Source: a virus
IMG/VR virus record: IMGVR_UViG_3300032241_000675
Span: 1 to 20,081 of that record
Strand: one strand, 5' to 3'
DNA: 20,081 bases
In this document: positions 1-13,147 of the stretch, piece after piece
Layout of the letters: each line of letters starts with the position of its first letter
Position numbering within the stretch: the stretch's first letter is position 1
The notes under the pieces: model-generated
Told to the model about the DNA's origin: nothing
Seen by the model: only the letters and a program-made list of their open reading frames with translations
Database searches by the model: none
Program-made: the position numbers and the translations under genes

Positions 1-1362
1 CGGCTTGAACAAACAATCTTAAAAAACTTAATTTACAATGAAGAATACCTACGAAAAGTCTTACCATTCATTAAAGACGAATACTTTACCGATTCGGTTG
101 AAAAGATTTTGTTTAAAGAAATCGCTGAATTTATTTCAAAGTATAATACTCCGCCAACGATTGAAGCGATTACATTGGCCGTCAAAGAAAGGAGAAATCT
201 CACGAATGCTGAGATGGAAAAGTCCAAAAGTTATCTACAAGAGATTGAATTGGCTAAGGGTGAAGAATCCAAAATTCAATGGCTTATTGATAAAACCGAA
301 AACTTCTGCCAAGAAAAAGCAATATACAACGCAGTATTGGGGTCTATTTCAATTTTGGATGGGAAAGACAAGACCCAAGACAAAGGTGCGATTCCCAAGA
401 TATTATCGGACGCCTTATCGGTAACATTTGATAATTCTGTTGGTCATGATTACTTGGAGAACTCAGATGAACGTTATGAATTTTATCACAGACATGAAGA
501 ACGAATTCCATTTGATTTAGATTACTTTAATAAGATTACAAAAGGCGGTCTACCCACTAAAACTCTTAATATCGCTTTGGCTGGTACTGGTGTGGGAAAA
601 TCTCTTTTTATGTGTCATGTTGCTGCTGGTGCTATGTCTTTGGGTAAAAATGTACTTTACATCACCTTAGAAATGGCTGAAGAAAGAATTGCTGAAAGAA
701 TAGATGCTAATCTATTGAATGTGACCGTAGATGATTTGTCCGAAATACCAAAGGAAATATATGATAAGAAAATTGAAAAATTACGTGGAAAAATTACAGG
801 TAAACTTATTATCAAAGAATATCCAACTGCCTCAGCTTCTACAACTCACTTTAGGACACTATTAAATGAACTCAACCTTAAGAGGTCCTTTGTACCTGAT
901 ATTATTTTTATTGATTACCTTAACATTTGTTGTAGTTCACGAATTAAACCAGGTGCAAACATCAATTCTTACACTTATGTCAAATCAATTGCAGAAGAAC
1001 TGCGAGGACTTGCCGTTGAATTCGGAGTCCCAATTGTTTCTGCAACTCAGACCACAAGATCCGGTTTTACAAGTTCCGACCCAGGACTCGAAGATACAAG
1101 TGAGAGTTTTGGTTTGCCTGCAACCGCCGACCTGATGTTTGCTCTTATCTCAAGTGAAGAACTGGAAGAACTTGGTCAGATTATGGTCAAACAATTGAAG
1201 AATCGTTATTCTGATCCAACATTACATAAACGATTTGTCCTTGGTATTGACAGAGCAAAGATGAGATTATATGATGTGGAACAAAATGCACAGAACGATA
1301 TTGCTGATGCAGGATATTCTACACCCAAACCTAAAAAGAATTTTGATGGATTTAAAGTATGA
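1..1362 (+). CDS. 41: Replicative DNA helicase, T4 gp41-like (5' end outside window)
   Basis: This is a DnaB-type hexameric 5'-3' helicase that would unwind the replication fork together with the phage primase. The frame is open from base 1, so the start lies upstream; 453 codons are visible, against about 475 residues for T4 gp41. Counting from the first visible codon, the Walker A loop is GTGVGKS at 195-201 and the Walker B strand IIFIDYL ends around Asp305. The segments KITKGG, LYITLEMAEER, RIDANLL, FRTLLNEL, SYTYVKSIAEELR and GLPATAD match T4 gp41 as I remember it almost residue for residue. An internal ATG at 109 is not the start, because homology to T4 gp41 continues upstream (for example the EYF and VLPF region near residues 20-30). 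The stop overlaps the next start by four bases (ATGA), so the two genes are probably translationally coupled. Confidence 0.95.
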   Translation, partial: RLEQTILKNLIYNEEYLRKVLPFIKDEYFTDSVEKILFKEIAEFISKYNTPPTIEAITLAVKERRNLTNAEMEKSKSYLQEIELAKGEESKIQWLIDKTENFCQEKAIYNAVLGSISILDGKDKTQDKGAIPKILSDALSVTFDNSVGHDYLENSDERYEFYHRHEERIPFDLDYFNKITKGGLPTKTLNIALAGTGVGKSLFMCHVAAGAMSLGKNVLYITLEMAEERIAERIDANLLNVTVDDLSEIPKEIYDKKIEKLRGKITGKLIIKEYPTASASTTHFRTLLNELNLKRSFVPDIIFIDYLNICCSSRIKPGANINSYTYVKSIAEELRGLAVEFGVPIVSATQTTRSGFTSSDPGLEDTSESFGLPATADLMFALISSEELEELGQIMVKQLKNRYSDPTLHKRFVLGIDRAKMRLYDVEQNAQNDIADAGYSTPKPKKNFDGFKV

Positions 1363-2468
1363 AATTAACTAGGGAAGAAGCACTATATTGTGCCAATGCC
1401 TTCCATGAATATTTCAATGATATTGGTTCCATTGAAGAATACATGAGAGATGAGAAATTAAAATCTTTGGCAGATATGCCAACTTCTTTATTTCCACCAG
1501 AAGATGATTTATTCTCAGACTTTTCAATGCACCCAAAAGACATGGAGATTGAAGTCACGGAAATACCGAGCGAGACTTGGTCCACATTATTGAATATTAC
1601 CTCATCACATATCAATAAAGCACCTGTTGGTAGAAATATTGAATTGGCTGTTAAAGAAAAAAACACAGGAAAGATTCTAGGATTCATTCGCTTAGGTTCA
1701 CCAGTAATCTATATGAAACCACGTAATGAATTGCTTGGACAGGTCTGGATTCAACAACCAGACACATCTAAACGATTCAATCAATCCGCTATTATGGGTT
1801 TTGTTATTGTACCAGCGCAACCTTTTGGATTCAATTATCTTGGTGGTAAATTGCTGGCAGCTATCTGTACTTCTCATACTGTTAGAGAAATAGTTAACAA
1901 AAAATATGATGCTAATATATGTCTATTTGAAACTACCAGTTTATATGGAACTGCCAAAACAGTATCTCAATATGATGGTATGAAACCTTTAATTCGTTTT
2001 CAAGGTTTAACTGAATCTGATATGGTACCAATGATGCATGGTCCGAGATATCTAACATTGAAAGATTATGTTGAAAGCCGAGTTGGTGATTTATTGGCTG
2101 GTGACACATCAACAACTAGTCGCAAACTTAGAACTTTTACCAAAATTATTGCCTTGACCAAGGCTGCTCTGAAAGGTAGTTCTAAATATGATGAATTCAA
2201 TAAAATAATTGAAAATGCCAAAAACTTAACCGAGAAGAAACGTTACTACACCTCAGATTATGGATTCAAAAACATGGTTGATTATATGGCCTGTAGAACT
2301 GATACCTTAATTAAAGGAGACAACTATACTAAACATGAATTATCTAATATTGTAGAGTGGTGGAGGAACAAAGCAATAAATAGATACGAAACCCTTAAAT
2401 TAGAGGGTAGATTACGTACCGAACTAGAAGTTTGGACATCAGGTAAAGACATACAAATTATTAGATAA
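1359..2468 (+). CDS. Conserved phage protein of unknown function, possible DUF4338/GNAT-like fold
   Basis: A 369-residue protein whose start overlaps the helicase stop by four bases, which points to co-expression with replication genes. I do not recognise it with certainty. The middle third contains GRNIELAV, GKILGFIRLG, GFVIVPAQPFGFNYLGGKLLA and FETTSLYGTAKTVSQY. This order (a strand pair, a Pro-containing strand, a helix with GGKLLA, then an E-T-x-x-YG strand) is reminiscent of the DUF4338 proteins found in phages and in some defence loci, which have an acyltransferase-like fold. That link is from memory and is weak. The C-terminal 120 residues are helical and charged (YYTSDYGFKNMVDY, EWWRNKAINRYETLKLEGRLR) and could bind nucleic acid. 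No signal peptide or membrane segment is visible. The proximity to gp41 suggests a role in DNA metabolism or modification, which is inference. Confidence 0.8.
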   Translation: MKLTREEALYCANAFHEYFNDIGSIEEYMRDEKLKSLADMPTSLFPPEDDLFSDFSMHPKDMEIEVTEIPSETWSTLLNITSSHINKAPVGRNIELAVKEKNTGKILGFIRLGSPVIYMKPRNELLGQVWIQQPDTSKRFNQSAIMGFVIVPAQPFGFNYLGGKLLAAICTSHTVREIVNKKYDANICLFETTSLYGTAKTVSQYDGMKPLIRFQGLTESDMVPMMHGPRYLTLKDYVESRVGDLLAGDTSTTSRKLRTFTKIIALTKAALKGSSKYDEFNKIIENAKNLTEKKRYYTSDYGFKNMVDYMACRTDTLIKGDNYTKHELSNIVEWWRNKAINRYETLKLEGRLRTELEVWTSGKDIQIIR

Positions 2469-2470
2469 CT

Positions 2471-3706
2471 ATGGCATCTCCAACCGATATACAAGAATCT
2501 GCTCAGGCTTTATTTTGTGCTTTAGCCAATAAACATGGCGCAACAAATATTGACGCAACTTTCAATAAAGAAACTTATCCAACTTATCTTGATTTTAAAA
2601 AAGCTTGGAATAAAAAGAATAAATCGGTTACCATAGAGAAAGCTTTTCAAACTCATGTAAAATCTGGTAAAGCTTCTTTTGATGAAATTGAAGAATTTTT
2701 ACATGGTACAAAAGAAAAAAGTAAATCAAAAAAGAATGATTGGTATTATTCATCATTACAAATTTCTAAACAATTAATTAAAGATATTGCTTCCATTAGT
2801 AACAAATTTAATTATGTCAAATCTGGAGATTGGTCTAATATTTTCTGGAGACATGGTGATAAAGAAGTGATGGAAAATATTGCCAAATTATATAAGAAAG
2901 CAAATGATTATCAAAAATTATTGGTCGTAAGTGGTTCAAAAGCAGATAGACCTTTTGATAACATTAATAAATGGTCTACAGCTGATATCTATTTTGCTTC
3001 AGAAACAGCGAAAAGAGAAATTGAAGATTTGGTTAAAGAAAAGAAATTAGATTTCACAAAATTAAATAGTTTTGTAAGTAAAACTATTACAGAAGGATCT
3101 TTGTTACCATTATCATTGAAAAAACAACCAAACTCCGTTACAATTAAAAAAGTTAATTTCAATAGGCCACAAGAACAAAAAGATATTGATAAACTTGAAT
3201 ATAGCGGAACAGAAGATTGGAAAAAATTTGATCCTAAAAAAGATGATATTAACAAATACAAAAGAACTTTGATTCTTTTTATGTCTAAAGATAAAAAGTT
3301 AACTTTACAATTAAGACATGATGCTTCAACAGAGATATTCAAAGGTGTTGTTGTTATTCCAGGTTCTGGAGCTTTTGAAGGAAGTATAAGTGCCGGTGGT
3401 ATTCGTGATATGATTAAAACCGTTGATGCAAATTTTGCTAAAAAATGGTATGATACTTATGATAATGTAAACATTAAATTTAGAGAAAGAAAATCTTTTT
3501 TAGACAAAGAATTGAAAACAAAAGATAGAGCAAGATATGATGAAGAAAGAGAAATGGCTAGTGCTTTAGTTACAAATGAAGTTAATCCTTTATTACTAGA
3601 TTGGTTGAAAAAAGACCAAAAAAGATCCGATTTATTTGTAAGAGCTATATACACATATGCAACCGCACGTTCAACAAATTCATCAAAATATGTTATAGCG
3701 AAATAA
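2471..3706 (+). CDS. Hypothetical phage protein, possible nuclease-like fold
   Basis: A 411-residue, lysine-rich soluble protein starting two bases after the previous stop; no strong Shine-Dalgarno sequence is seen before the ATG. The N-terminus (ESAQALFCALANKHG) is helical, and residues 80-90 are a K/S-rich linker. A central block holds KWSTADIYFAS (Asp172) followed about 40 residues later by LLPLSLKK (Lys217-Lys218). An Asp on a strand followed by a strand ending in S/E-x-K is the usual spacing of a PD-(D/E)xK-type nuclease core, but the expected acidic residue of the second half-motif is replaced by Ser-Leu, so this is only a suggestion. Residues 295-330 contain a glycine-rich stretch (VVVIPGSGAFEGSISAGG). 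Codons are strongly A/T-ending and the gene looks more AT-rich than its neighbours, which may mark a later arrival. The function is unknown. Confidence 0.75.
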   Translation: MASPTDIQESAQALFCALANKHGATNIDATFNKETYPTYLDFKKAWNKKNKSVTIEKAFQTHVKSGKASFDEIEEFLHGTKEKSKSKKNDWYYSSLQISKQLIKDIASISNKFNYVKSGDWSNIFWRHGDKEVMENIAKLYKKANDYQKLLVVSGSKADRPFDNINKWSTADIYFASETAKREIEDLVKEKKLDFTKLNSFVSKTITEGSLLPLSLKKQPNSVTIKKVNFNRPQEQKDIDKLEYSGTEDWKKFDPKKDDINKYKRTLILFMSKDKKLTLQLRHDASTEIFKGVVVIPGSGAFEGSISAGGIRDMIKTVDANFAKKWYDTYDNVNIKFRERKSFLDKELKTKDRARYDEEREMASALVTNEVNPLLLDWLKKDQKRSDLFVRAIYTYATARSTNSSKYVIAK

Positions 3707-3707
3707 T

Positions 3708-3989
3708 ATGGCACTAACCGACTTCCAAAAAATACTTGAAGAATATAAAGTGACCGATAATGATTTCGGTTTCTCTGCTCTGTCTGAAGAAGAACATAAC
3801 GCTAGAATAACTTCTAGCACACAAACAGCTGAAGATTACAAACGTAGATTGACCGATTTAGAAAAACTAATAGTGCCTTTCCTACAGAAACTACACACTA
3901 CAGGTGAGAAAGAATATATCTATTGGCCCAACCGTAAACCTGTTCTTGAGGAACAATTACAAAAGGTATTGAAATTAACTAGAGGATAA
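3708..3989 (+). CDS. Small conserved T4-like phage protein
   Basis: A 93-residue protein starting one base after the preceding stop. It is mostly helical: residues 1-60 contain a probable coiled-coil segment (AEDYKRRLTDLEKLIVPFLQKL). The C-terminus is EYIYWPNRKPVLEEQLQKVLKLTRG. The YWPNR-x-x-x-(L/I)-E-x-Q motif is familiar from small uncharacterised proteins of marine T4-like phages, so I believe it is a real conserved gene rather than a chance frame. I know of no function. It closes the replication-side block; the next gene begins three bases later and opens the glycan cassette. Confidence 0.8.
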   Translation: MALTDFQKILEEYKVTDNDFGFSALSEEEHNARITSSTQTAEDYKRRLTDLEKLIVPFLQKLHTTGEKEYIYWPNRKPVLEEQLQKVLKLTRG

Positions 3990-3991
3990 TT

Positions 3992-4705
3992 ATGAAAGCG
4001 ACTGTGATTATACCAACCACGGGGTCGGATGAAGTGGTTGGTGCTATTGATTCAGTATTAAAACAAACCATAGAAACACAAGTCTATCTTGTTTGTGACG
4101 GTAAAGAATTTACTGATAAAGTAAAAAGAATTGCGGAAAAATATGCTACCAATTCTTTCGTTAAAGTTTGTTATTTGCCTTTGAATGTAGGTGCAAATGG
4201 TTTTTATGGACATCGTGTCTATGCTGCCTTTACTCACCTAATCAACACCGAGTATGTTCTATATTTGGACCAAGACAACACATTTAAACCCAACCACGTT
4301 GAATCCTGCATCAATACTATTGAGAAATATAGTCTTGATTGGTCATATTCTCTCCGTTCTATTATAGATAAAAAAGGTAAACATCTGTGTGATGACAATT
4401 GTGAATCTCTCGGTAAATGGCATACTTATCACGGTGTTAACCATATTGACACAAATTGTTATTGCATTAAAACTGAAATTGCGATAAAATTAGCAAGTGC
4501 ATGGCATGGAGGTTGGGGTCAAGACCGAGTATTCCTAGGTGCAATAGCTCAGCATTTTCCAAGATTTGATTGTAACGGAGAATATACAGTAAACTACCGA
4601 GTTAACGGAAACCCAGGTTCTGTTACACCAGAATTCTTTGAAAATGGTAATGCAATAATGAGTAAAAAATATAATGGAGATTTCCCATGGCGCAAAAAGA
4701 TTTAA
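3992..4705 (+). CDS. Family 2-type glycosyltransferase (GT-A fold)
   Basis: A 237-residue protein that probably transfers a nucleotide-activated sugar to a glycan acceptor. It has a typical GT-A start: KATVIIPTTGSDEVVGAIDSVLKQT, with the nucleotide-binding first strand followed by the S-x-L-x-Q-T helix of GT2 enzymes. The metal-binding DXD equivalent is DQDN at residues 93-96 after the strand EYVLYL. Downstream, HGGWGQDRVFLGAIAQHF occupies the place of the acceptor-side acidic motif. It is short for the family, so it is a catalytic domain with no membrane anchor, as expected for a cytoplasmic phage enzyme. AGAGGA six to eleven bases before the ATG supports this start. Its 3' end overlaps the next gene by 19 bases. 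The acceptor cannot be deduced. Confidence 0.85.
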   Translation: MKATVIIPTTGSDEVVGAIDSVLKQTIETQVYLVCDGKEFTDKVKRIAEKYATNSFVKVCYLPLNVGANGFYGHRVYAAFTHLINTEYVLYLDQDNTFKPNHVESCINTIEKYSLDWSYSLRSIIDKKGKHLCDDNCESLGKWHTYHGVNHIDTNCYCIKTEIAIKLASAWHGGWGQDRVFLGAIAQHFPRFDCNGEYTVNYRVNGNPGSVTPEFFENGNAIMSKKYNGDFPWRKKI

Positions 4706-5559
4706 TCATCGGTGGTTGTACAAACTACGGAATCAATGAACTTAAACCTTGGGTTCTTTCAGTAAATGAATGTATGCCTGATGCACATAAAGTGATGTGT
4801 GTTGGTAATGCAACTGCCGAAACAATAAAATGGTTATCTGAACAAGGATTTGATATAGTAAATATGCCAAACATGAATGTCCCTGTTCATGTGTTACGAT
4901 TCCTATCTATTTACGAATATTTGAGAAATACTTGGCAAGATTATCGTTATGTTGTGACTACCGATGTAAAAGATGTATTCTTTCAATGGTCACCATTTAA
5001 GTGGATGGAAGACCAATCTATTGGTAATGACATGATTGTTAACCAAAAATTAGTTTGTGGTTCTGAAGGTATGCGTTATTGTGATGAACCATGGGGCAAT
5101 GAAAACTTAATGCAAGCTTATGGTCCTTATGTACATGAGTTGTTTAAGAATGAAAAAATATATAATGTTGGTGTTCTTGGTGGAACTGCTGAGTATTTAA
5201 AAGACTTAGTGTTCAACATTTTCACCAATGCGATTAATAGACCAATTGCAATTTGTGACCAAGCAGTATTCAACGTACTAATCAATACACAACCATATTA
5301 TGACGTAATGTTCTTTGCAGGTAATCAACACGCATGGGCTTGTCAAGCAGGAACAATGGTTGATCCATCTAAGATTGAATCATTTAGACCTTTCTTATTA
5401 GACGCTGAACCTATATTTGATAATGGTATTGTATGGACTGCTGATCGTGAAATGTATTGCATTGTTCACCAGTATGACCGTGTACCAGAATGGAAAAAGT
5501 TTGTTGAAAAGAAATATGACCAAGTAAATTCTGATGAATATATTATTATAAGAACATAA
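4687..5559 (+). CDS. GT-A-type glycosyltransferase-like protein
   Basis: A 290-residue protein. It begins LIIGGCTNYGINELKPWVLSVNE, followed by the helix-strand pattern of a nucleotide-sugar domain. The segment YRYVVTTDVKDVFFQ places a DxxD acidic motif at residues 93-96, the same layout as the TDVRD(V/I)xFQ motif seen in uncharacterised glycosyltransferase-like proteins of viruses and eukaryotes. Later segments (YNVGVLGGTAEYLKDL and CDQAVFNVL) fit the acceptor loop and an active-site Asp-Gln. The start at 4687 is supported by GGAGA five bases upstream, inside the preceding gene, giving a 19-base overlap in another frame and likely translational coupling. There is no membrane segment. The class assignment is good, but the donor and acceptor sugars are unknown. 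Confidence 0.8.
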   Translation: MAQKDLIIGGCTNYGINELKPWVLSVNECMPDAHKVMCVGNATAETIKWLSEQGFDIVNMPNMNVPVHVLRFLSIYEYLRNTWQDYRYVVTTDVKDVFFQWSPFKWMEDQSIGNDMIVNQKLVCGSEGMRYCDEPWGNENLMQAYGPYVHELFKNEKIYNVGVLGGTAEYLKDLVFNIFTNAINRPIAICDQAVFNVLINTQPYYDVMFFAGNQHAWACQAGTMVDPSKIESFRPFLLDAEPIFDNGIVWTADREMYCIVHQYDRVPEWKKFVEKKYDQVNSDEYIIIRT

Positions 5560-5560
5560 G

Positions 5561-6262
5561 ATGAGTTTGGGATTTATACTTTCAGCTTCAAATCAATTGA
5601 GAGCTGCTGAATTTAATATGAGTAATATTCGTAAGTTTTACCCAAATAGTTCATACATCATATTGGTTGATAAAGGTAAAGACTATTACGATTTGGCTAA
5701 AAAGTACAATGCAGAAATTTTATATTGCCAAAAGAAAAATGGTTATCCCGTTCAACCCAACGGTTACCAAAAAGAACAAATTTTGGAATTCTTACAAAGA
5801 ATGTATATTGGTTGTTTGAGATGCACAGAAGAATATGTTATGCTTGTTGAAGAAGATGTTTACATAACCAAAGAGATTACGATACCGGAAAATACAATTG
5901 TTGCAGGATTCAACACAACAATTGGCAATGATTATCCTCAAAAATTTATTGACTTAATAACAAATTGGTCTGGTATAGAACCAAAATTTAAAAAATATGG
6001 AGCTTGCGGTGGAACAATATTTCATAGATTGACTTTTGTTAATAACTATGATAGAATGTGTACTTTTATTAAGATAAATTTAGATGAAGTCTTTACTTAT
6101 TACCCAACCGCAGGATGGATTGATTGTTTTATGTCTTATTTGTTCCAAGTAATTGGATATTATTATACACCAAATGTAAAATTATTTAACATATATCCTC
6201 ATCTGAAAAAAATACCAGAAGGTACCGAGATTGTAGGAAATTACAAAGGATACTATGATTGA
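5561..6262 (+). CDS. GT-A-like glycosyltransferase-family protein
   Basis: A 233-residue protein starting one base after the previous stop. The N-terminus (GFILSASNQLRAAEFNMSNIRKFYPNSSYIILVDKG) resembles the first Rossmann-like half of GT-A enzymes, where several residues bind the nucleotide. The strand EEYVMLVEEDVYI carries an acidic cluster E97-E98-D99 at the position of the DXD motif, and YGACGGTIFHRLTF resembles the acceptor loop. The C-terminal part has aromatic-rich segments (YYPTAGWIDCFMSYLFQVIGYYY) that are amphipathic rather than clearly transmembrane. It sits between a transferase and a methyltransferase in the same coupled run, which supports a glycan role. Sequence similarity to named families is weak, so it could be a divergent or inactive transferase. 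Confidence 0.7.
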   Translation: MSLGFILSASNQLRAAEFNMSNIRKFYPNSSYIILVDKGKDYYDLAKKYNAEILYCQKKNGYPVQPNGYQKEQILEFLQRMYIGCLRCTEEYVMLVEEDVYITKEITIPENTIVAGFNTTIGNDYPQKFIDLITNWSGIEPKFKKYGACGGTIFHRLTFVNNYDRMCTFIKINLDEVFTYYPTAGWIDCFMSYLFQVIGYYYTPNVKLFNIYPHLKKIPEGTEIVGNYKGYYD

Positions 6263-6881
6263 AAATTATGAAATGATTGATAACGGCCATTGGTATCAAA
6301 GCAAAATAACTGGCGAACCAATGAAGTATGATGAGAATTACATTCAGTATTATACTAGAATGGACAATTCTATGTCCAAACTAAGATACAATTTAATACT
6401 GAACCACATAGGTATTTTTAAGTCGGTATTGGATGTTGGTTATGGTGACGGCAATTTCTTACAATATTGTTTCAATAGAGATAAGATTTGTTATGGCCAT
6501 GATATATCAAATTATCCTTTACCTGGAGGAATAGATTTTGTAAAAAATGTAGGTGATGTTGAAGTAGATGTTATAACTTTTTTTGATTCACTAGAACACA
6601 GAACCGAAAAAAACCTTATTCCTTTTTTGAAAACTATTCAAGCAAAATACATAGTGGTATCTTTACCTTGGATGCACCAAAGTCTAGGTGCTGAATGGTT
6701 TAAAACATGGAAACACAGAAAAGAAAACGAACACATACATCATTTTGATTACGTTGGTTTAATTAATATATTAAAAGAAGCAGACTTTGATTTAATCTAT
6801 ATTGGTAACGAAGAAGATGTTATTCGTAAACCTGTAACATACTTACCTAATATTTTAACTGTGATTGCAAGAAAACGATGA
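6255..6881 (+). CDS. SAM-dependent class I methyltransferase
   Basis: A 208-residue protein of the small Rossmann methyltransferase type. Motif I is SVLDVGYGDGNFLQYC (residues 57-72, with the glycine loop at 62-66) and binds S-adenosylmethionine. VDVITFFDSLEH is the motif IV region, and YIVVSLPWMH follows in the position of strand 5. This pattern fits the Methyltransf_23-type enzymes often found in polysaccharide clusters, where they cap or decorate sugars. The HxHHFDY segment near residue 160 is also common in that group. It overlaps the previous gene by eight bases, with AAAGGA six bases before the ATG, and its stop overlaps the next start (ATGA). The likely substrate is a sugar in the cassette product, inferred from context only; a nucleic acid substrate is not excluded. 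Confidence 0.88.
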   Translation: MIENYEMIDNGHWYQSKITGEPMKYDENYIQYYTRMDNSMSKLRYNLILNHIGIFKSVLDVGYGDGNFLQYCFNRDKICYGHDISNYPLPGGIDFVKNVGDVEVDVITFFDSLEHRTEKNLIPFLKTIQAKYIVVSLPWMHQSLGAEWFKTWKHRKENEHIHHFDYVGLINILKEADFDLIYIGNEEDVIRKPVTYLPNILTVIARKR

Positions 6882-7687
6882 GTGACATTACTATTGTAAC
6901 AGCCTTCTTTGATATAGGCCGTGGTGATTGGAGTCCAGACAAAGGTCTTCCACATTATCTACAAAGAACAAATGATACGTATTTTGAAAGGTTCTCACAC
7001 CTCGCCAGTTTAGATAACAATATGGTCATTTACACATCACAAGATTTAGCTGAGCGTATTTCTCAGTATAGAATTGGCAAGATGGATAAAACTAAGATTG
7101 TTTGTTTTGACTTTGCAAATGCGTTTGATAAAGAACGTAAGATAATTCAAACAGTACAATCAAATATTGAATATAGAGCTAATATTAATCCAATTCAATC
7201 TAAAAATCCTGAATATTGGAGTGTTGATTATGTACTAGTTAATTATCTGAAATCATCTTTTGTAAATCATGCTATCAATAATGGATTGGTTCCAGATGAA
7301 TTGGTTGCTTGGTTAGATTTTGGTTATTGTCGTAGTAAAGACATTCTTTTTGGAGTTACAAAGTGGCAATATCCTTTCAATAAAAATTTAATTCATGTTT
7401 TCAGTATTAAAAACTTTAAAGAAGGAAGAATGATACAAGATATCATTTTTAATAATGATGTACACATTACTGGTCCACATATTATTGCAAGTAAATCTAT
7501 GTGGCCTAAGTTAGATATTATGATTAATCATCACTTTTTGTTTTTGGCAAATAGTAATTTGATGGATGATGATCAAACACTTTTATTGATGTCAACACTA
7601 TCAAATCCGGAAGTGTTTGAAGTACACAAAGTTTCACCAAATGATTGGTTTGTTATTTTTAGGGATTATAATGAAAATATATCTTAA
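6878..7687 (+). CDS. HtrL/YibB-like protein of glycan clusters
   Basis: A 269-residue protein resembling the HtrL/YibB family, which is encoded in bacterial lipopolysaccharide core and other surface-glycan loci and is thought to be glycosyltransferase-like; its reaction is not established. Family-type segments are the N-terminal ITIVTAFFDIGRGDW, then YFERFSHLASLDNNMVIYTS, PEYWSVDYVLVNYLKSSFV and LVAWLDFGYCRS, where the WLDFGY acidic position is the candidate active-site strand. There is no signal peptide or membrane helix. The start overlaps the methyltransferase stop by four bases, and the end overlaps the next gene by 17 bases. Finding a host-type LPS-locus family in a phage cassette supports the idea that the products act on surface-type glycans. 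Confidence 0.8.
   Translation: MSDITIVTAFFDIGRGDWSPDKGLPHYLQRTNDTYFERFSHLASLDNNMVIYTSQDLAERISQYRIGKMDKTKIVCFDFANAFDKERKIIQTVQSNIEYRANINPIQSKNPEYWSVDYVLVNYLKSSFVNHAINNGLVPDELVAWLDFGYCRSKDILFGVTKWQYPFNKNLIHVFSIKNFKEGRMIQDIIFNNDVHITGPHIIASKSMWPKLDIMINHHFLFLANSNLMDDDQTLLLMSTLSNPEVFEVHKVSPNDWFVIFRDYNENIS
7661..7665 (+). promoter_or_regulatory. Ribosome binding site AGGGA deciding the start at 7671
   Basis: AGGGA lies five bases before ATG 7671. An in-frame ATG at 7617 would give 18 extra residues (MKYTKFHQMIGLLFLGII) that read as an out-of-frame copy of the upstream gene's coding sequence. The protein starting at 7671 begins directly with the expected first strand, MKIYLNSTANLGDF. I therefore prefer 7671. 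Confidence 0.6.
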
Positions 7688-8408
7688 TTCTACGGCAAAT
7701 TTAGGAGATTTCTTAAATTCTATGCCTGTGTTATCCGGTTTATCTAAACAGAATGAATTGGAGTTAATTGTCAGAAATGAAATGAAGAAGTTTAAAGGCT
7801 TCGAAGAATTTCTAGTTTATCAAAATCTATTTAAAAGTGTGGACTTTGATAATGACATCTTTATGTATGGAAATATCACATTGTTTAGTTCTTGGACTAG
7901 AGAAGACCAAAGTAATTCAAATCGTCCAATTGAAACTTGTAGATACGAGAACTGGATGAGAGACAAATACCCTGATATTAAATTTGAAGTTGATGATGAT
8001 TTTGAAATCAAATTCCCTCAGTTTGATTTTGTTGTAAGAAGCGATGTGCCTTATGTTGGTGACAGATGGAATATAAATGATATTGATTCACGTAGAGAAA
8101 GTAATGTTTTAACACATCTTTCAAAATATGAATTTATAGACTATAATAAAGATTTGTTGGAAAACTGTTATACCATAAAAAAATCTCCTAAACCTTTTAT
8201 TACTAATCTGACTGGTGTTGCTGTGTTGGCCGACTTATTGAACAAAGAACAATTAGTAGTTTGGAAACAAGAAGATTTTAAACCAGAATTTAGAAAAGGT
8301 GATAACATTGATTGGGATAATGGTAAAGATATCAATAAAGTTTTTGCCAAACATTTTTACGGTAACAGAAAATCTAAATTAGTACACGCAAATGATTTAC
8401 AATATTGA
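7671..8408 (+). CDS. Short GT-B/GT9-like protein (glycosyltransferase-related), first of a pair
   Basis: A 245-residue protein. The beginning, KIYLNSTANLGDFLNSMPVLSGLSKQ, has the pattern of family 9 (heptosyltransferase-like) N-termini: a strand, then N-x-G-D-x-(L/I)-x-x-x-P-V-L-x-x-L. Residues 100-150 are acidic (KFEVDDDFEIKFPQFDF). FITNLTGVAVLADLLNKEQLVVW near the C-terminus resembles the part of GT9 enzymes where the donor site and the helix with conserved small residues lie, but the usual D-S/T-G-x-x-H motif is not evident. At 245 residues it is well short of the roughly 330-350 of GT9 enzymes. It may be a divergent, possibly non-catalytic partner of the next gene, with which it overlaps by 17 bases. 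Confidence 0.65.
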   Translation: MKIYLNSTANLGDFLNSMPVLSGLSKQNELELIVRNEMKKFKGFEEFLVYQNLFKSVDFDNDIFMYGNITLFSSWTREDQSNSNRPIETCRYENWMRDKYPDIKFEVDDDFEIKFPQFDFVVRSDVPYVGDRWNINDIDSRRESNVLTHLSKYEFIDYNKDLLENCYTIKKSPKPFITNLTGVAVLADLLNKEQLVVWKQEDFKPEFRKGDNIDWDNGKDINKVFAKHFYGNRKSKLVHANDLQY

Positions 8409-9093
8409 ACCCGGAACTTTTGGTGGTCCTGCTCGAAACGGAGATATAGTTGCCATCATCAATGTTATTCAACACTTAAGGTTTGCAAAACCAAATCTGA
8501 AGTTTCATATGAAACCTGGCACAATAAGTGCCGATGATTATTGTCAAAAGTTTTTTCAGTATCTTTGTAAAACAAATGATTTCTTTTCTCCAACACAAGG
8601 TACCGAATCTTTAAATTGGAGAAAAGTAAATTTATGGGACTTCCGTGATATAATTGGTGACAATGTATCAATCAAAAACCCAGACACCATGGTTGATAAG
8701 ATTGTTATCTTTCCCGTTACTGATGCACCATACAACACTTATCGCAATTGGTCTTCTGATGTTTTACCAAAAGTTATTGGTGAATTTAGTAGAGTAGAAT
8801 ATATGAATTACGAAAAGTTAATTTGTGTTAAAGAACCACTTAAAGAAAAATATGATGGTTGGACATATAGTACTGATATGGTAGAAAATATTCATCATAT
8901 TAATACAGCTAAAGTATATGTTGGTGGTGATACAGGAACTTCTCATTACACATGGTCACTTGACAGAGGACCAGAAACTATGATATACTACAACTCAAGT
9001 AGGGGACTAATACATACTTTACCTTTCTATATAACAAAAGGAAAAGGCGAATTAAGAACATACTGGTTGGACTTTGAAGGAACTAAATGGTAA
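8392..9093 (+). CDS. GT9-like glycosyltransferase-related protein, second of a pair
   Basis: A 233-residue protein with a GT-B/GT9 outline. The N-terminal segment GGPARNGDIVAIINVIQHLR corresponds to the G-D-x-(I/V) helix at the start of heptosyltransferase-like enzymes. The C-terminal AKVYVGGDTGTSHYTWSL corresponds to the conserved (V/I)G-x-DTG-x-x-H-x-A-x-x-L donor-binding motif. Between them, KIVIFPVTDAPYNTYRNWSSDVLPKVI resembles the linker strand and the P-x-x-x-W segment. It is about 100 residues shorter than the family norm. No convincing ribosome binding site precedes the ATG; the 17-base overlap with the upstream gene suggests translational coupling. The predicted role is sugar transfer to the cassette glycan, with low certainty about donor and acceptor. 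Confidence 0.72.
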   Translation: MIYNIEPGTFGGPARNGDIVAIINVIQHLRFAKPNLKFHMKPGTISADDYCQKFFQYLCKTNDFFSPTQGTESLNWRKVNLWDFRDIIGDNVSIKNPDTMVDKIVIFPVTDAPYNTYRNWSSDVLPKVIGEFSRVEYMNYEKLICVKEPLKEKYDGWTYSTDMVENIHHINTAKVYVGGDTGTSHYTWSLDRGPETMIYYNSSRGLIHTLPFYITKGKGELRTYWLDFEGTKW

Positions 9094-9758
9094 GTGTGAC
9101 AGTTATAGATTCTCTATATTATGATTTAAAACCACTTAAAAAAACATTAGAAATTTTAAGTAATAAAATCAATAGAGTTCATTGGTTTAGTGACATTCCA
9201 TTTCCAGAAAAACCATTTCATGTTCCTGTTACATGGACCAAAATATCTAAAATTAAAAACTACAATGATGAGTATGGTTACATAACTTTGAAATTATGTC
9301 CAAGTGTTTGTACGGAAAATTATAACCTCATCATACACAATGACGGATTTGCAGTTAATGCGGATGCTTGGACTGATGAATTTTTAGAATATGATTACAT
9401 TGGTGCAACTTGGACTGATGGTTTTGTTGGCAATGGAGGATTCTGTTTAAGGTCAAGAAAATTGTATGATGCTTTATTGGATATGAATATACCTTATGAC
9501 ACAAACAGTTATAAAGATTATTTTAACGGAGATTTTTATTCAGTTATATCCAATGGTAATAAACTTGTTCCTGAAGATAGTATAATATGTAAGATACATA
9601 AGAGTACATTAGAGACAAAATATGGAATCAAATTTGCTCCACAACAAATAGCAGATAGATTTAGTATTGAGCACAATATGAGTTCTCCTTGGTTGGGGAA
9701 AAGTTTAGGTTTTCATGGTAAACATGGAATTCACAAATATTATGGAGTGGATTTATAA
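9087..9758 (+). CDS. DUF5672-like protein, probable glycosyltransferase relative
   Basis: A 223-residue protein. The segments NLIIHNDGFAVNADAWTDEFLEYDYIGATW and GNGGFCLRSRKLYDAL match what I remember of the DUF5672 family, found in polysaccharide loci, giant viruses and phages and regarded as GT-A-like. HNDG (residues 84-87) would sit at the place of a metal or nucleotide acidic motif, and GNGGFCLRS (115-123) is the family signature loop. PEDSIICK near residue 160 supplies a second acidic pair. The ATG overlaps the preceding stop by seven bases and is preceded by GAAGGA with a five-base spacer. Its stop shares a base with the next ATG (TAATG). The reaction is unproven; the family match is the firm part. 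Confidence 0.82.
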   Translation: MVSVTVIDSLYYDLKPLKKTLEILSNKINRVHWFSDIPFPEKPFHVPVTWTKISKIKNYNDEYGYITLKLCPSVCTENYNLIIHNDGFAVNADAWTDEFLEYDYIGATWTDGFVGNGGFCLRSRKLYDALLDMNIPYDTNSYKDYFNGDFYSVISNGNKLVPEDSIICKIHKSTLETKYGIKFAPQQIADRFSIEHNMSSPWLGKSLGFHGKHGIHKYYGVDL

Positions 9759-11053
9759 TGGGTGTAGTATTAGATTCTAGAGATATGGTCAATTTTTTGG
9801 CCCAAGAAGACATCAAATATGTAAAAAATTATGACAATTATGTTGATGGAGAATTTGTACAATACTCTGGTCAATTGTGGGATTACAAAGAAATTACGGC
9901 TGCAATCAATACATTACTTTATGGTAAGTGGATTGTTGCTGGAGAAAAAGTAGCACAGTTTCAAATCAAATTCAGTAAAAGATTTAATGTAAATCATTCT
10001 CACATGGTCAACTCAGGCAGTTCGGCCAATCTGGTATTGATTACTGCCATGAAAAAGAAATTCAACTGGCAGCCTGATGATGAAGTGATTGTATCACCTG
10101 TTGGGTTTCCTACAACGATTGCACCTATCGTACAAAATGGTTTGAAACCAATTTTTATTGATATAGAATTGGATACATTAAACTTTGATGTTAATTTAAT
10201 TGAAGGAAAGATTACATCTAAAACAAAAGCTATTTTTGTTTCACCTGTATTAGGTAATCCGCCTGATATGGATAGACTTGTTGATATCTGTAATAAACAT
10301 AACCTTGTTTTGTTGGGAGATAACTGTGATTCTTTAGGAACAAACTGGAAAGGTAATTTAATTACTGATTTGTACTATGCTTGGACCACATCATTCTATC
10401 CAGCACACCACATATCTACAGGTGAAGGTGGCATGGTTTGTTCAAATGATGAAGATTTTATCAATCAAGCCAGAAGTATTTCTTGGTGGGGTCGTGATTG
10501 TTATTGTGTCGGTTCAAACAATCTATTAGAATGTGGAACTTGTGGGAACCGTTTTGACAAATGGTTGGATGATTTTGATGGCATCATTGACCATAAATAT
10601 TTGTTTACCAATATCGGTTACAATTTAAAACCATTGGACTTACAAGGTGCTATTGGTATTGAACAATTGGCTAAGTTTGATATGTTAGAGTCTAAACGTA
10701 GAGAGTATAAAAATATCATTCAAAAGTTTATTGAAGACAATATCAAAGGAGTCCGTGTGATTGATGCATCACCAAATTCTGATCCTTCTTGGTTTGGTGT
10801 TCCTATTTATTGTGAAACTCAAGAAATCAAAGAAAAATTTGTTGCTCACCTAGAGAAAAACAAAATTCAAACCAGAAATTACTTTAGCGGCAATATTCTT
10901 TTACATCCAGGTTATAAACACCTAGATGATGCTAAAAAGTATACAAATTCAAATTTGGCTTTGAGCAATGTATTTTTTGTTGGTTGTTCTCCTCTTTATA
11001 ATCAAAAAGTTCTTTCATATATTGAAAAAGTGTGTAAAAAATGGAACGATTGA
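9758..11053 (+). CDS. rfbH: PMP/[2Fe-2S] sugar 3-dehydrase, RfbH/E1 type (DegT/DnrJ fold)
   Basis: A 431-residue enzyme of the fold-type I aminotransferase superfamily. E1-type members do not transaminate: with PMP and an iron-sulfur cluster they remove the C3 hydroxyl of CDP-4-keto-6-deoxyglucose, on the way to 3,6-dideoxyhexoses. Supporting residues are SGSSANL near 85-91 and GDNCDSLG around 188-195. In SFYPAHHISTGEGG (212-225), His217 occupies the place of the PLP-binding lysine, as in RfbH, AscC and ColD. C190 and C248 are separated by 57 residues, followed by C250, C259 and C262 in GRDCYC and CGTCGNRF, closely resembling the cluster site of E1. HKYLFTNIGYNLKPLDLQGAIG is the standard DegT C-terminal block. 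The spacing between C250 and C262 is about four residues longer than in the RfbH sequences I remember. No E3-type reductase is encoded nearby, so electrons would have to come from the host or from outside the window. Confidence 0.9.
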   Translation: MGVVLDSRDMVNFLAQEDIKYVKNYDNYVDGEFVQYSGQLWDYKEITAAINTLLYGKWIVAGEKVAQFQIKFSKRFNVNHSHMVNSGSSANLVLITAMKKKFNWQPDDEVIVSPVGFPTTIAPIVQNGLKPIFIDIELDTLNFDVNLIEGKITSKTKAIFVSPVLGNPPDMDRLVDICNKHNLVLLGDNCDSLGTNWKGNLITDLYYAWTTSFYPAHHISTGEGGMVCSNDEDFINQARSISWWGRDCYCVGSNNLLECGTCGNRFDKWLDDFDGIIDHKYLFTNIGYNLKPLDLQGAIGIEQLAKFDMLESKRREYKNIIQKFIEDNIKGVRVIDASPNSDPSWFGVPIYCETQEIKEKFVAHLEKNKIQTRNYFSGNILLHPGYKHLDDAKKYTNSNLALSNVFFVGCSPLYNQKVLSYIEKVCKKWND

Positions 11054-11853
11054 TTAATGTATTAGGTGCTGGGTTTGTTGGAGGTCGTTATTGTGAATTG
11101 ACACCCAACACAATCGTAAATGAAAGAAATGATTACACGATTAAGGCAAATGATGTATTATATTTCATTTCAACCATAGACAACTATAACGTACATACAA
11201 ATCCTTATCTGGACATAGATACAAATCTAACCACATTGATTAAGACGTTACAGACTTGTAAAGAAAATACAACCTTCAACTTTATTAGTTCTTGGTTTGT
11301 TTATGGTAATGTGCCATTGCCAGCCAAAGAAGATTCTTATTGTGATCCAAAAGGTTTCTATTCTATTACTAAACGTGCTGCGGAACAACTATTGATTTCA
11401 TATTGTGATACTTTTGGTATTAAATATCGTATCATTAGATTAGCCAATGTTTTGGGTAAATCTGATAGTAAAGTGTCCAAGAAAAAGAATGCTTTACAGT
11501 ATATGATTAATGAAATCAAAAACAATAACGATGTTAATTTATATGATGGAGGAGAAATATTTAGAGACTACATTCATGTTGATGATGTAGTGAAAGCGAT
11601 TAATCTAATACTTGATAAAGGTAATTTGAACACCATCTATAATATAGGAAATGGTGAGAAAGTATATCTAAAAGACGCTTTGTCTTATGTTAAAGATAAA
11701 GTAGGATCCTCCTCAAAATTCAATATTATTAAATCGGTAAAGTTCCATCAGACGGTTCAGACAAAAAATATGGTGCTTGACATTTCAAAAATACAACAAC
11801 TAGGGTATAAACCTAGTATGGATATTTGCCAAATTTTAGATTCTGTGTTATAA
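11041..11853 (+). CDS. NAD(P)-dependent sugar epimerase/reductase, extended SDR
   Basis: A 270-residue extended short-chain dehydrogenase. The dinucleotide-binding turn is GAGFVG (residues 9-14), and the catalytic pair is Tyr107-x-x-x-Lys111 in FYSITKRAAEQ. NFISSWFVYG supplies the upstream catalytic Ser region, IIRLANVLGK the post-active-site strand, and FRDYIHVDDVVKAI the conserved substrate-side block; NIGNGEKV follows. It overlaps the 3-dehydrase gene by 13 bases. In O-antigen clusters the enzyme after RfbH is an SDR such as abequose or paratose synthase, which reduces the C4 keto group of the 3,6-dideoxy intermediate, so the same role is inferred here. It is slightly shorter than typical epimerases because the region after the first strand is compressed. 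A GDP- or UDP-sugar epimerase cannot be excluded. It is the last gene of the glycan run; a TAA-TAG double stop follows. Confidence 0.85.
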   Translation: MERLINVLGAGFVGGRYCELTPNTIVNERNDYTIKANDVLYFISTIDNYNVHTNPYLDIDTNLTTLIKTLQTCKENTTFNFISSWFVYGNVPLPAKEDSYCDPKGFYSITKRAAEQLLISYCDTFGIKYRIIRLANVLGKSDSKVSKKKNALQYMINEIKNNNDVNLYDGGEIFRDYIHVDDVVKAINLILDKGNLNTIYNIGNGEKVYLKDALSYVKDKVGSSSKFNIIKSVKFHQTVQTKNMVLDISKIQQLGYKPSMDICQILDSVL

Positions 11854-11864
11854 TAGACCGTATA

Positions 11865-11905
11865 TATCGGTTGGAACATTTTAAAGATTCTGACATATAC
11901 CGATA
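11865..11905. other. Imperfect inverted repeat in the intergenic region
   Basis: TATCGGT at 11865-11871 is the reverse complement of ACCGATA at 11899-11905, with a 27-base spacer. The left arm also lies inside a short dyad, ACCG-N7-CGGT, at 11857-11871. It sits just upstream of the late promoter core and downstream of the SDR stop. It could be a weak RNA hairpin ending the glycan operon or a protein-binding site. The arms are short, there is no T-run after the right arm, and chance is possible. Confidence 0.25.
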
Positions 11906-11912
11906 AAAGTTG

Positions 11913-11920
11913 TATAAATA
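11913..11920 (+). promoter_or_regulatory. T4-type late promoter core TATAAATA
   Basis: An exact match to the T4 late promoter consensus TATAAATA, which is read by host RNA polymerase carrying phage gp55 with gp33 and the sliding clamp. It lies in the 115-base intergenic region, the only substantial one in the window. In T4 the core spans about -13 to -6, so transcription would start near 11926-11927, giving a leader of about 43 bases before ATG 11969. It would drive the operon of the ligase-like protein, the fusion enzyme and the following virion-type genes. Confidence 0.72.
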
Positions 11921-11968
11921 AGCAACGGCAACCAAAGTGTGTTGCATTTCTAGAGAAGGTCTAATTCA

Positions 11969-13147
11969 ATGGGTCGTTTTTTACAATTTCTCAAGGAAGA
12001 AGCCGAAGGTGATGGCAAATTAAAGCACATTACTCATCCGGAGGATCGTCCTTTGATGCACGGAGCAAAAGGCTTCAAACGTGCTGTTGAGGTATTGAAT
12101 AAGGCGCACAACCACATCAAGTCTGGTGGCCACAGTTCTGATATGACAATGAAATATGATGGTTCGCCATCTTTAGTTTTTGGTCATCATCCAGAGACTG
12201 GTAAATTCTTTGTGGCGTCCAAGTCCGCTTTCAATAAGAATCCTAAGATCAATTATACCTCGGCAGACATTCAAAAGAACCATGGCCATGCTCCTGGTCT
12301 TGTAGATAAATTACAGGCATCACTTACACATTTAAAGAAAGTTGCACCAAAGAAAGGTGTATATCAAGGCGATGTTATGTTTTCTCACGGTGATGTGAAA
12401 CATAAGTCGGGCGGAAAAGCATCATTCACACCAAATACAATCACATATACTGCTAAAGGCGATGAAGCTGAAAAAGTTAAAAAAGCCAAATTAGGTATAG
12501 TTGTTCACCAACAATATCATGGCGACACATTAGATAATATGAAGGCGGATCCTCATCCAGACCATCACAATTTTGGTCATCATCCAGATGTGTGGCATAA
12601 ATCAGCGGAATTGAACACTAAAAATGTTCATTATTCCGAAGAGGATCAAAATGAATTTCATAAACATATGGAAGCTGCCAAAAAGATACATGATGCTCAT
12701 GGTAAAGAAATGTATAAGGCTACTGAACCACATTCTGGTGAAGCTGGTCATTTGGCAACTTATATTAATCACACGGTTCGTACAGATGAGAAACCAACAC
12801 CTGAAGGTTTGAAAAAACATATAGCGGATAAGTATAAGAAAAGTATTGAAAAGTTAAAAACTCCTGCAGCTCAATCAAAAAAAGCAAGTGAATTGAAATC
12901 ACATATGGATTACATTGATGCTAACAAAAAACATTATAAAGCTGCATTAGATATGCACCAACATTTAGAAAAAGCAAAAAACGTTTTGGTTCGTACATTG
13001 AACCAAGCACCAGGAGGTCTAGAACATCATATTAATGATAAACCAACCGATCCAGAAGGTTATGTTGTCAATCATGCTGGTGAACCTGACAAATTGGTCA
13101 ATCGTAAAGAATTCGCCAAAGCAAACTTACTTAAAGTTAGAAAATGA
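11969..13147 (+). CDS. Ligase-like covalent nucleotidyltransferase (DUF6267-like phage protein)
   Basis: A 392-residue protein rich in His and Lys. It carries, in order, the motifs of the DNA/RNA ligase and capping-enzyme superfamily. Motif I is KYDG at 62-65 (Lys62 would carry the AMP), a following SKSAF resembles a motif Ia-type segment, YQGDVM at 132-137 is motif III-like, GIVVH at 176-180 is IIIa-like, and PEGYVV at 362-367 is motif IV-like. About 180 residues, mostly charged helix (coiled-coil-like), are inserted between IIIa and IV, which is unusual. I believe this corresponds to the phage family DUF6267, from memory. The N-terminus MGRFLQFLKEEA resembles the leader of three other proteins here and T4 capsid-targeting peptides, so it may be packaged and processed after Glu10 or Glu11. 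GAGAAGG lies nine bases before the ATG. The substrate (RNA, DNA or protein) is unknown. Confidence 0.75.
   Translation: MGRFLQFLKEEAEGDGKLKHITHPEDRPLMHGAKGFKRAVEVLNKAHNHIKSGGHSSDMTMKYDGSPSLVFGHHPETGKFFVASKSAFNKNPKINYTSADIQKNHGHAPGLVDKLQASLTHLKKVAPKKGVYQGDVMFSHGDVKHKSGGKASFTPNTITYTAKGDEAEKVKKAKLGIVVHQQYHGDTLDNMKADPHPDHHNFGHHPDVWHKSAELNTKNVHYSEEDQNEFHKHMEAAKKIHDAHGKEMYKATEPHSGEAGHLATYINHTVRTDEKPTPEGLKKHIADKYKKSIEKLKTPAAQSKKASELKSHMDYIDANKKHYKAALDMHQHLEKAKNVLVRTLNQAPGGLEHHINDKPTDPEGYVVNHAGEPDKLVNRKEFAKANLLKVRK

Follow-up and report, generated by a model that had tools for sequence, protein, structure and literature searches.

A fixed-position glycan cassette in uncultured T4-like phages and its possible role as a serotype locus

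The window analysed here is an entire IMG/VR virus record of 20,081 bases. A sequence-only reading had recognised ten consecutive genes within it (3992-11853) as a glycan set, and we found all ten open reading frames to be intact and co-directional. These genes appear to represent one allele of a serotype-like glycan locus, held at a fixed position throughout a lineage of uncultured T4-like phages. We regard it as an even call that the cassette is a phage “serotype locus” whose enzymes lengthen, in the cytosol, an acceptor of the host, most likely the LOS/LPS core, against rival phages. Glycan clusters are already known from T4-like aquatic phages (PMC3037559, PMC7029224). What sets this locus apart is the fixed slot between the replication genes and the late block, the constancy of the first gene pair in front of exchangeable distal blocks, and the core enzymes themselves: tblastn against 50,697 phage records gave no match to g1, g6 or g7 and a single distant match to g2. 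A description of this slot was not found in the literature, which does not prove that there is none.

Membership in the T4-like (Kyanoviridae-like) phages is indicated by the DnaB-like helicase of the window (PHROG 19) and by the terminase of a 163.8-kb relative (G001), which matches those of cyanophages at 53.6%. Further, the gene order around the helicase and the cytidyltransferase is common to the lineage of the window and phage HTVC008M.

The cassette and its transcription unit

Table 1. Features of the window (coordinates from its first base).
Feature	Coordinates	Strand	Basis or remark
Upstream replication block	1..3989	+	Runs without gaps into the cassette
DnaB-like helicase, 5' end cut	1-1362	+	PHROG 19
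PHROG 19197 protein	1359-2468	+	
Two genes without assigned function	2471-3706, 3708-3989	+	
g1, family-2 glycosyltransferase	3992..4705	+	Pfam GT2, E 4e-11; DxD at residue 93
g2, GT-A-fold glycosyltransferase	4687..5559	+	Predicted fold; no Pfam match; TTDVKDV motif
g3	5561..6262	+	No family match
g4, SAM methyltransferase	6255..6881	+	Pfam Methyltransf_23
g5, HtrL/YibB family protein	6878..7687	+	Pfam HtrL_YibB, 1.5e-57
g6, GT9-like (heptosyltransferase-like)	7671..8408	+	Predicted fold only; no Pfam match
g7, probable GT9-like glycosyltransferase	8392..9093	+	Pfam GT9, sub-threshold only; TIGR02193, E 0.0012, below cut-off
g8, DUF5672 protein	9087..9758	+	Pfam, E 5e-14
g9, E1/RfbH-like (CDP-)4-keto-6-deoxyhexose 3-dehydrase	9758..11053	+	Pfam DegT, 1e-70
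g10, SDR nucleotide-sugar epimerase/reductase-like	11041..11853	+	Pfam Epimerase/SDR, 8e-27
TATAAATA, T4-type late-promoter motif	11913..11920	+	Sole exact copy in the window; first base 56 bases 5' of the d1 ATG
d1, first gene 3' of the slot	11969..13147	+	PHROG 455; protein begins MGRFLQFLKEE, similar to a T4 capsid-targeting sequence

Pfam and NCBIfam together identify g1, g4, g5, g8, g9 and g10. Two of the other assignments in Table 1 rest on AlphaFold models. That of g2 (42 sequences; pLDDT 93.5) has a predicted GT-A fold and comes nearest to alpha-1,3-galactosyltransferase, UGGT, LH3 and mimivirus R699, at a TM of about 0.5. That of g6 (40 sequences; pLDDT 93.6), for which the ATG at 7671 was taken as the start instead of the TTG at 7617 in the ORF list, is predicted to be closest to the GT9 heptosyltransferases WaaC, WaaF and TibC; WaaC superposes with a TM of about 0.54 and an rmsd of 7.9, and TibC fits almost as well, at a TM of only about 0.5. 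Profile searches of PDB sequences returned nothing for g2 and g6 and chance-level matches only for g7. The product of g9 aligns to the 3-dehydrase E1 (3bcx) with an E of 5e-70, and the motifs SFYPAHH and CYC...CGTC are common to both; we take these to be the histidine that replaces the PLP lysine and the iron-sulfur cysteines. Its score against the NCBIfam RfbH equivalog NF011936 is 358 bits, under the 423-bit cut-off. No membrane-like segment was found in any of g1-g10.

The tight junctions described in the sequence-only reading are present, the extremes being the 19-base overlap of g1 with g2 and the gap of 2 bases 5' of g1. Such packing is ordinary in this phage, since 100 of the 195 co-directional junctions in G001 are no longer than 2 bases (ORFs in the relatives were called from the first ATG, which makes their junction lengths approximate). 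Between the helicase and g10 every gap is at most 2 bases, and the first real gap is at 11854-11968; beyond it d1, d2 (a cytidyltransferase) and further genes follow, all on the plus strand. Because the gap-free run reaches upstream to DnaB, the transcription unit probably comprises more than the ten genes; the cassette has the look of the 3' portion of a longer unit that would start in or before the replication genes. The sequence-only reading had seen no internal terminator in the cassette; one weak terminator-like match lies inside g7 (8517-8533, +), and the scan, with 15 matches vs 9.3 in shuffles, gives no evidence in either direction. A scan for sigma-70 promoters (70 found vs 86 in shuffles) was equally uninformative.

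A common slot with exchangeable contents

Relatives were collected with g5 as query (30 viral loci) and with the flanking PHROG 19197 protein and d1 (the best 80 each, of 95 and 599 confirmed loci). The slot between the helicase/PHROG 19197 genes and d1 is spanned by at least 53 loci; slots over about 10 kb are excluded by the 10-kb flanks, so that long alleles are under-sampled. Merging near-identical slots (≥90% identity over ≥60%) reduced 54, including that of the window, to 40. Among the matches listed in IMG/VR, 39 of these 40 non-redundant slots hold a glycan cassette at the same position, L203 being the sole sampled slot without one. In the same 40 slots g1 occurs in 39, g2 in 38, g5 in 25, g6 in 24, g7 in 20 and g3 in 19, with g9 and g4 in 6 each and g8 in 5. 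The 29 slots found via the flanking genes were counted apart, which avoids the bias of the g5 query; among the matches listed, g1 is present in 28 of them, g2 in 27, g5 and g6 in 14 each, g7 in 10 and g9 in 2. One further slot, L206, has g1 and no recognised g2.

Wherever g1 and g2 occur together in flank-found slots (27, among the matches listed), g1 lies ahead of all 18 glycan families tested. F26, methyltransferase-like by eye and outside the 18-family test, stands 5' of g1 in three flank-found slots (L069, L096 and L114) and also in L030, and three further genes without assignment do so in L031. By gene content, g1 and g2 are an almost constant first pair of the slot. The comparison among close relatives proposed in the sequence-only reading yields a glycan cassette of fixed position and almost constant g1-g2, the rest of which varies from phage to phage.

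The distal part of the slot consists of alternative blocks in different phages. One block type reads (F11/F13)-g3-(g4)-g5-g6-g7, with or without g8-g9-g10; others are F8-F20-F12-F21-F22-F15 and F8-F17-SDR-F24 (the SDR family of our clustering lumps several SDRs), and there are more. Methyltransferases, a GT4 and an APH-like kinase are among the contents of the alternative blocks. Against its closest sampled relative, L051/L130, in which neighbouring genes are 89-97% identical, the window has 95% identity in g7 and g9 and only 57% in g5; further, the dS of g2 is lower than that of neighbouring genes in L055 and L012. Both facts point to exchange by recombination. Nine of the genes have a dN/dS of 0.04-0.13 against L051, and g5 has 0.25; the value for g7, which is in two pieces in L051, rests on 139 codons. 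The cassette is under purifying selection, and the part that follows g1-g2 is exchanged in blocks.

A contig of an alphaproteobacterial MAG (L212:8494-11780) carries, consecutively, a GT4 gene, a methyltransferase gene, a g2 homologue and a GT2 gene, much like one of the phage block types.

The late-promoter boundary and the block downstream

The core of the T4 late promoter is TATAAAT (PMC3037559). Among the matches listed, 36 of 39 relative slots have an exact TATAAATA within 120 bases 5' of d1; L025 and L203 lack it there, and L156 has a one-base variant. Elsewhere in the slot the motif occurs in 3 of 39 (L025, L203 and L206). In 316,728 slot bases, 3 copies were observed vs 32 expected under a first-order model. 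Within slot ORFs, 2 were observed vs 22.2±3.7 after synonymous codons were shuffled, and the reverse-strand motif gave 2 vs 22.9 in the same kind of comparison. This avoidance on both strands suggests that TATAAATA is a working signal in the lineage. Upstream of the cassette in G001, the nearest further copy is some 24 kb away from the one at d1 (24353 vs 48237). Since the motif stands before d1 and is avoided inside the slot, the cassette is probably transcribed as part of the replication (early/middle) unit and not with the virion genes. The copies inside the L025 and L206 slots may mark a second transcription start in those alleles.

Four proteins of the downstream block begin with similar sequences, which resemble the capsid-targeting sequences of T4: MGRFLQFLKEE (at window position 11969), MKSFLQLVQEE (13144), MKSFKQFINEK (18824) and MKSFNQFINET (19325). 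The capsid-targeting sequences of T4 are cut after L/I-X-E (PMC9026906). Four G001 proteins (L032-L033) have capsid-targeting-like starts as well; a fifth pattern match in G001 and one at window position 3708 look like chance. One of the proteins with such a start is a cytidyltransferase-family enzyme, which raises the possibility of an enzyme that may be packaged and injected. Separately, a gene of G001 for a NodU-like carbamoyltransferase (L036:8585-10402, -; below cut-off) belongs to one co-directional run with the terminase gene.

Possible acceptors of the glycan

The sequence-only reading had noted that the cassette has no flippase, polymerase or initiating transferase, and had argued from this for a soluble, virion or DNA acceptor. 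The absence itself holds, and it extends beyond the window: Wzx (PF01943) and PF02397 were not found in 16 relative records, nor Wzy_C, PF00953 and PF13440 in 20 (mostly fragments; G001 is the 163.8-kb record), the families sought being of the Wzx, Wzy, WecA and PglC/WbaP types; the same searches, run on 14 control genomes, were positive in 9 to 14 of them. Further, no polytopic membrane protein is predicted among the 419 slot ORFs, each having at most one hydrophobic segment. The argument built on the absence is weak. LPS/LOS-core glycosyltransferases also extend a host lipid in the cytosol; they can do without a phage-encoded flippase, polymerase or initiating transferase, since the host takes care of export. 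A soluble acceptor therefore does not follow.

Timing, order of action, acceptor and benefit are inferred as follows. Expressed from the replication unit, the cytosolic enzymes would build a short, variable oligosaccharide. Its shared inner part would probably be made by g1 and g2, and g3-g8, together with the deoxysugar enzymes g9 and g10, would add a variable, methylated, deoxysugar-bearing outer part. The acceptor would be a glycolipid of the host on the inner side of the membrane, most likely the LOS/LPS core, with host machinery exporting the product, and the altered surface would protect the infected cell from rival phages. An alteration of the cell ahead of the appearance of progeny would agree with the early/middle position.

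Several known systems resemble this arrangement in part. LOS outer-core loci need neither flippase nor polymerase, and cytosolic glycosyltransferases without either are what we find in the cassette. In Acinetobacter, the OC loci are reported as strain-variable sets of cytosolic glycosyltransferases, one type of which includes HtrL/YibB, the family of g5 (PMC4172580). Unlike the phage cassette, LOS outer-core loci lie on a bacterial chromosome and have a known acceptor. The cassette shares glycosyltransferases and deoxysugar enzymes of the E1/RfbH type with Wzx/Wzy O-antigen loci, but has none of their flippase, polymerase and initiating transferase. The LPS-type clusters described for the T4-like cyanophages P-SSM2, S-SSM7 and S-SM2 likewise group glycosyltransferases with nucleotide-sugar enzymes (PMC3037559), and the cluster of this kind in Synechococcus phage S-H68 includes a relative of g9 (57%). 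Those clusters are reported near hli03 or phoH (PMC3037559), whereas the slot here is between the replicative helicase and d1; a position near hli03/phoH or the tail fibres, which the slot does not have, is usual for LPS-type clusters and not strictly defining. In pelagimyophages, hypervariable LPS-type glycosyltransferase genes have been proposed to bring about serotype conversion, through O-chain modification, against co-infection (PMC7029224). The same account places these genes in the host recognition cluster and scattered, with 63 of 162 LPS-related proteins in the tail-fibre region, unlike the slot here; it also reports a hypervariable region between the replication and structural modules, and two freshwater fonsimyophages without LPS genes (PMC7029224). 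In HTVC008M the interval from helicase to cytidyltransferase contains just four hypothetical genes, one of which may be the d1 counterpart.

The gene products bear on the LOS/LPS core in both directions. In its favour, the predicted fold of g6 is nearest to WaaC/WaaF; against it, TibC, a protein heptosyltransferase (PMC4358343), fits the g6 model nearly as well. Also against it, relatives of g2 occur in Nocardia, and early-made enzymes could still modify late virion proteins. To our knowledge, Nocardia has no LPS. As for sugar supply, CDP-glucose synthesis (TIGR02623) reached its cut-off in none of 20 records, with weak partial matches in 4; with no phage supply found, the sugar for g9 would have to come from the host. 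A phage-made heptose donor was considered as general support and rejected, an HldE-kinase-like gene being present in only 2 of 20 records.

G001 has both an HldD-like gene (201 bits vs a 275 cut-off) and an HldE-kinase-like gene (below cut-off); the gene between them encodes a methyltransferase, not an isomerase. In the same genome an LpxH-like phosphoesterase, a GT2 and a D-Ala-D-Ala endopeptidase-like gene adjoin (L034:4346-6513, +). The LpxH-like, endopeptidase-like and heptose-related genes, all below curated cut-offs, hint at a putative envelope programme in this one genome. G001 further carries 25 tRNAs and a permuted tmRNA (L039:3668-4125, -, and L034; Rfam RF04321, 99 bits; tag ANDSRFLMAA), the latter a hint of an alpha- or betaproteobacterial host.

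Decoration of the virion is a somewhat unlikely alternative, in which the cytosolic enzymes would glycosylate a virion protein, g1 or g2 attaching the first sugar, to give variable glycans on head, tail or fibres. All of the cassette enzymes are cytosolic, the lipid-linked pathway families were not found (16 or 20 records), the slot has strong modular variability and the next gene block looks capsid-related, all of which suit it. So do the predicted folds, as g6 also resembles the protein heptosyltransferase TibC and the matches to g2 include LH3 and mimivirus R699. However, in none of the ten genes did we find a protein-acceptor signal, and the position of the cassette, ahead of the late promoter and within the replication unit, does not favour this reading. 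Its more specific form, in which g1 (GT2) and g2 start the glycan directly on a phage protein with no lipid carrier and the exchangeable blocks vary the coat, we hold to be doubtful.

Some other acceptor, such as a different host glycolipid, an S-layer or pilus protein or a soluble glycoside, seems improbable. Of 14 relatives of g2 in genome contigs, 5 have a GT2 or GT4 gene as neighbour, in hosts as different as Parachlamydiaceae and Alphaproteobacteria; the pairing is therefore not only a phage trait, which speaks for such an acceptor, but no acceptor gene was found beside the cassette. A search of six bacterial genomes that have g2 with the g7 profile gave no match and, lacking a positive control, is uninformative.

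The DNA acceptor of the sequence-only reading, in which glycosyltransferases would add sugars to a modified base, as they do in T4 or RB69, is very improbable. The early/middle position agrees with it, the T4 glucosyltransferases being so placed, but the thymidylate synthase/dCMP hydroxymethylase family (PF00303) is present in none of 10 records of up to 163.8 kb, and ten enzymes with deoxysugar synthesis and methylation exceed the needs of a base. Least credible is filler DNA for headful packaging, an option (“stuffer DNA”) that Sullivan et al. 2010 raised for cyanophage LPS clusters of unknown function (PMC3037559), because dN/dS is 0.04-0.25 against L051; all ten ORFs are intact as well, and in 27 of the 29 slots found via flanking genes g1-g2 comes first among the glycan genes (18 tested families; F26 ahead in 3).

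The glycan clusters of T4-like aquatic phages have so far been left open as functional or filler in the published account (PMC3037559). The constant pair, block exchange, purifying selection and late-promoter boundary argue that a locus of the kind described here works and undergoes exchange, in the manner of a bacterial capsule or LOS locus. Whether it acts on the host surface or the virion becomes a question that can be tested with a single phage or a single expressed cassette.
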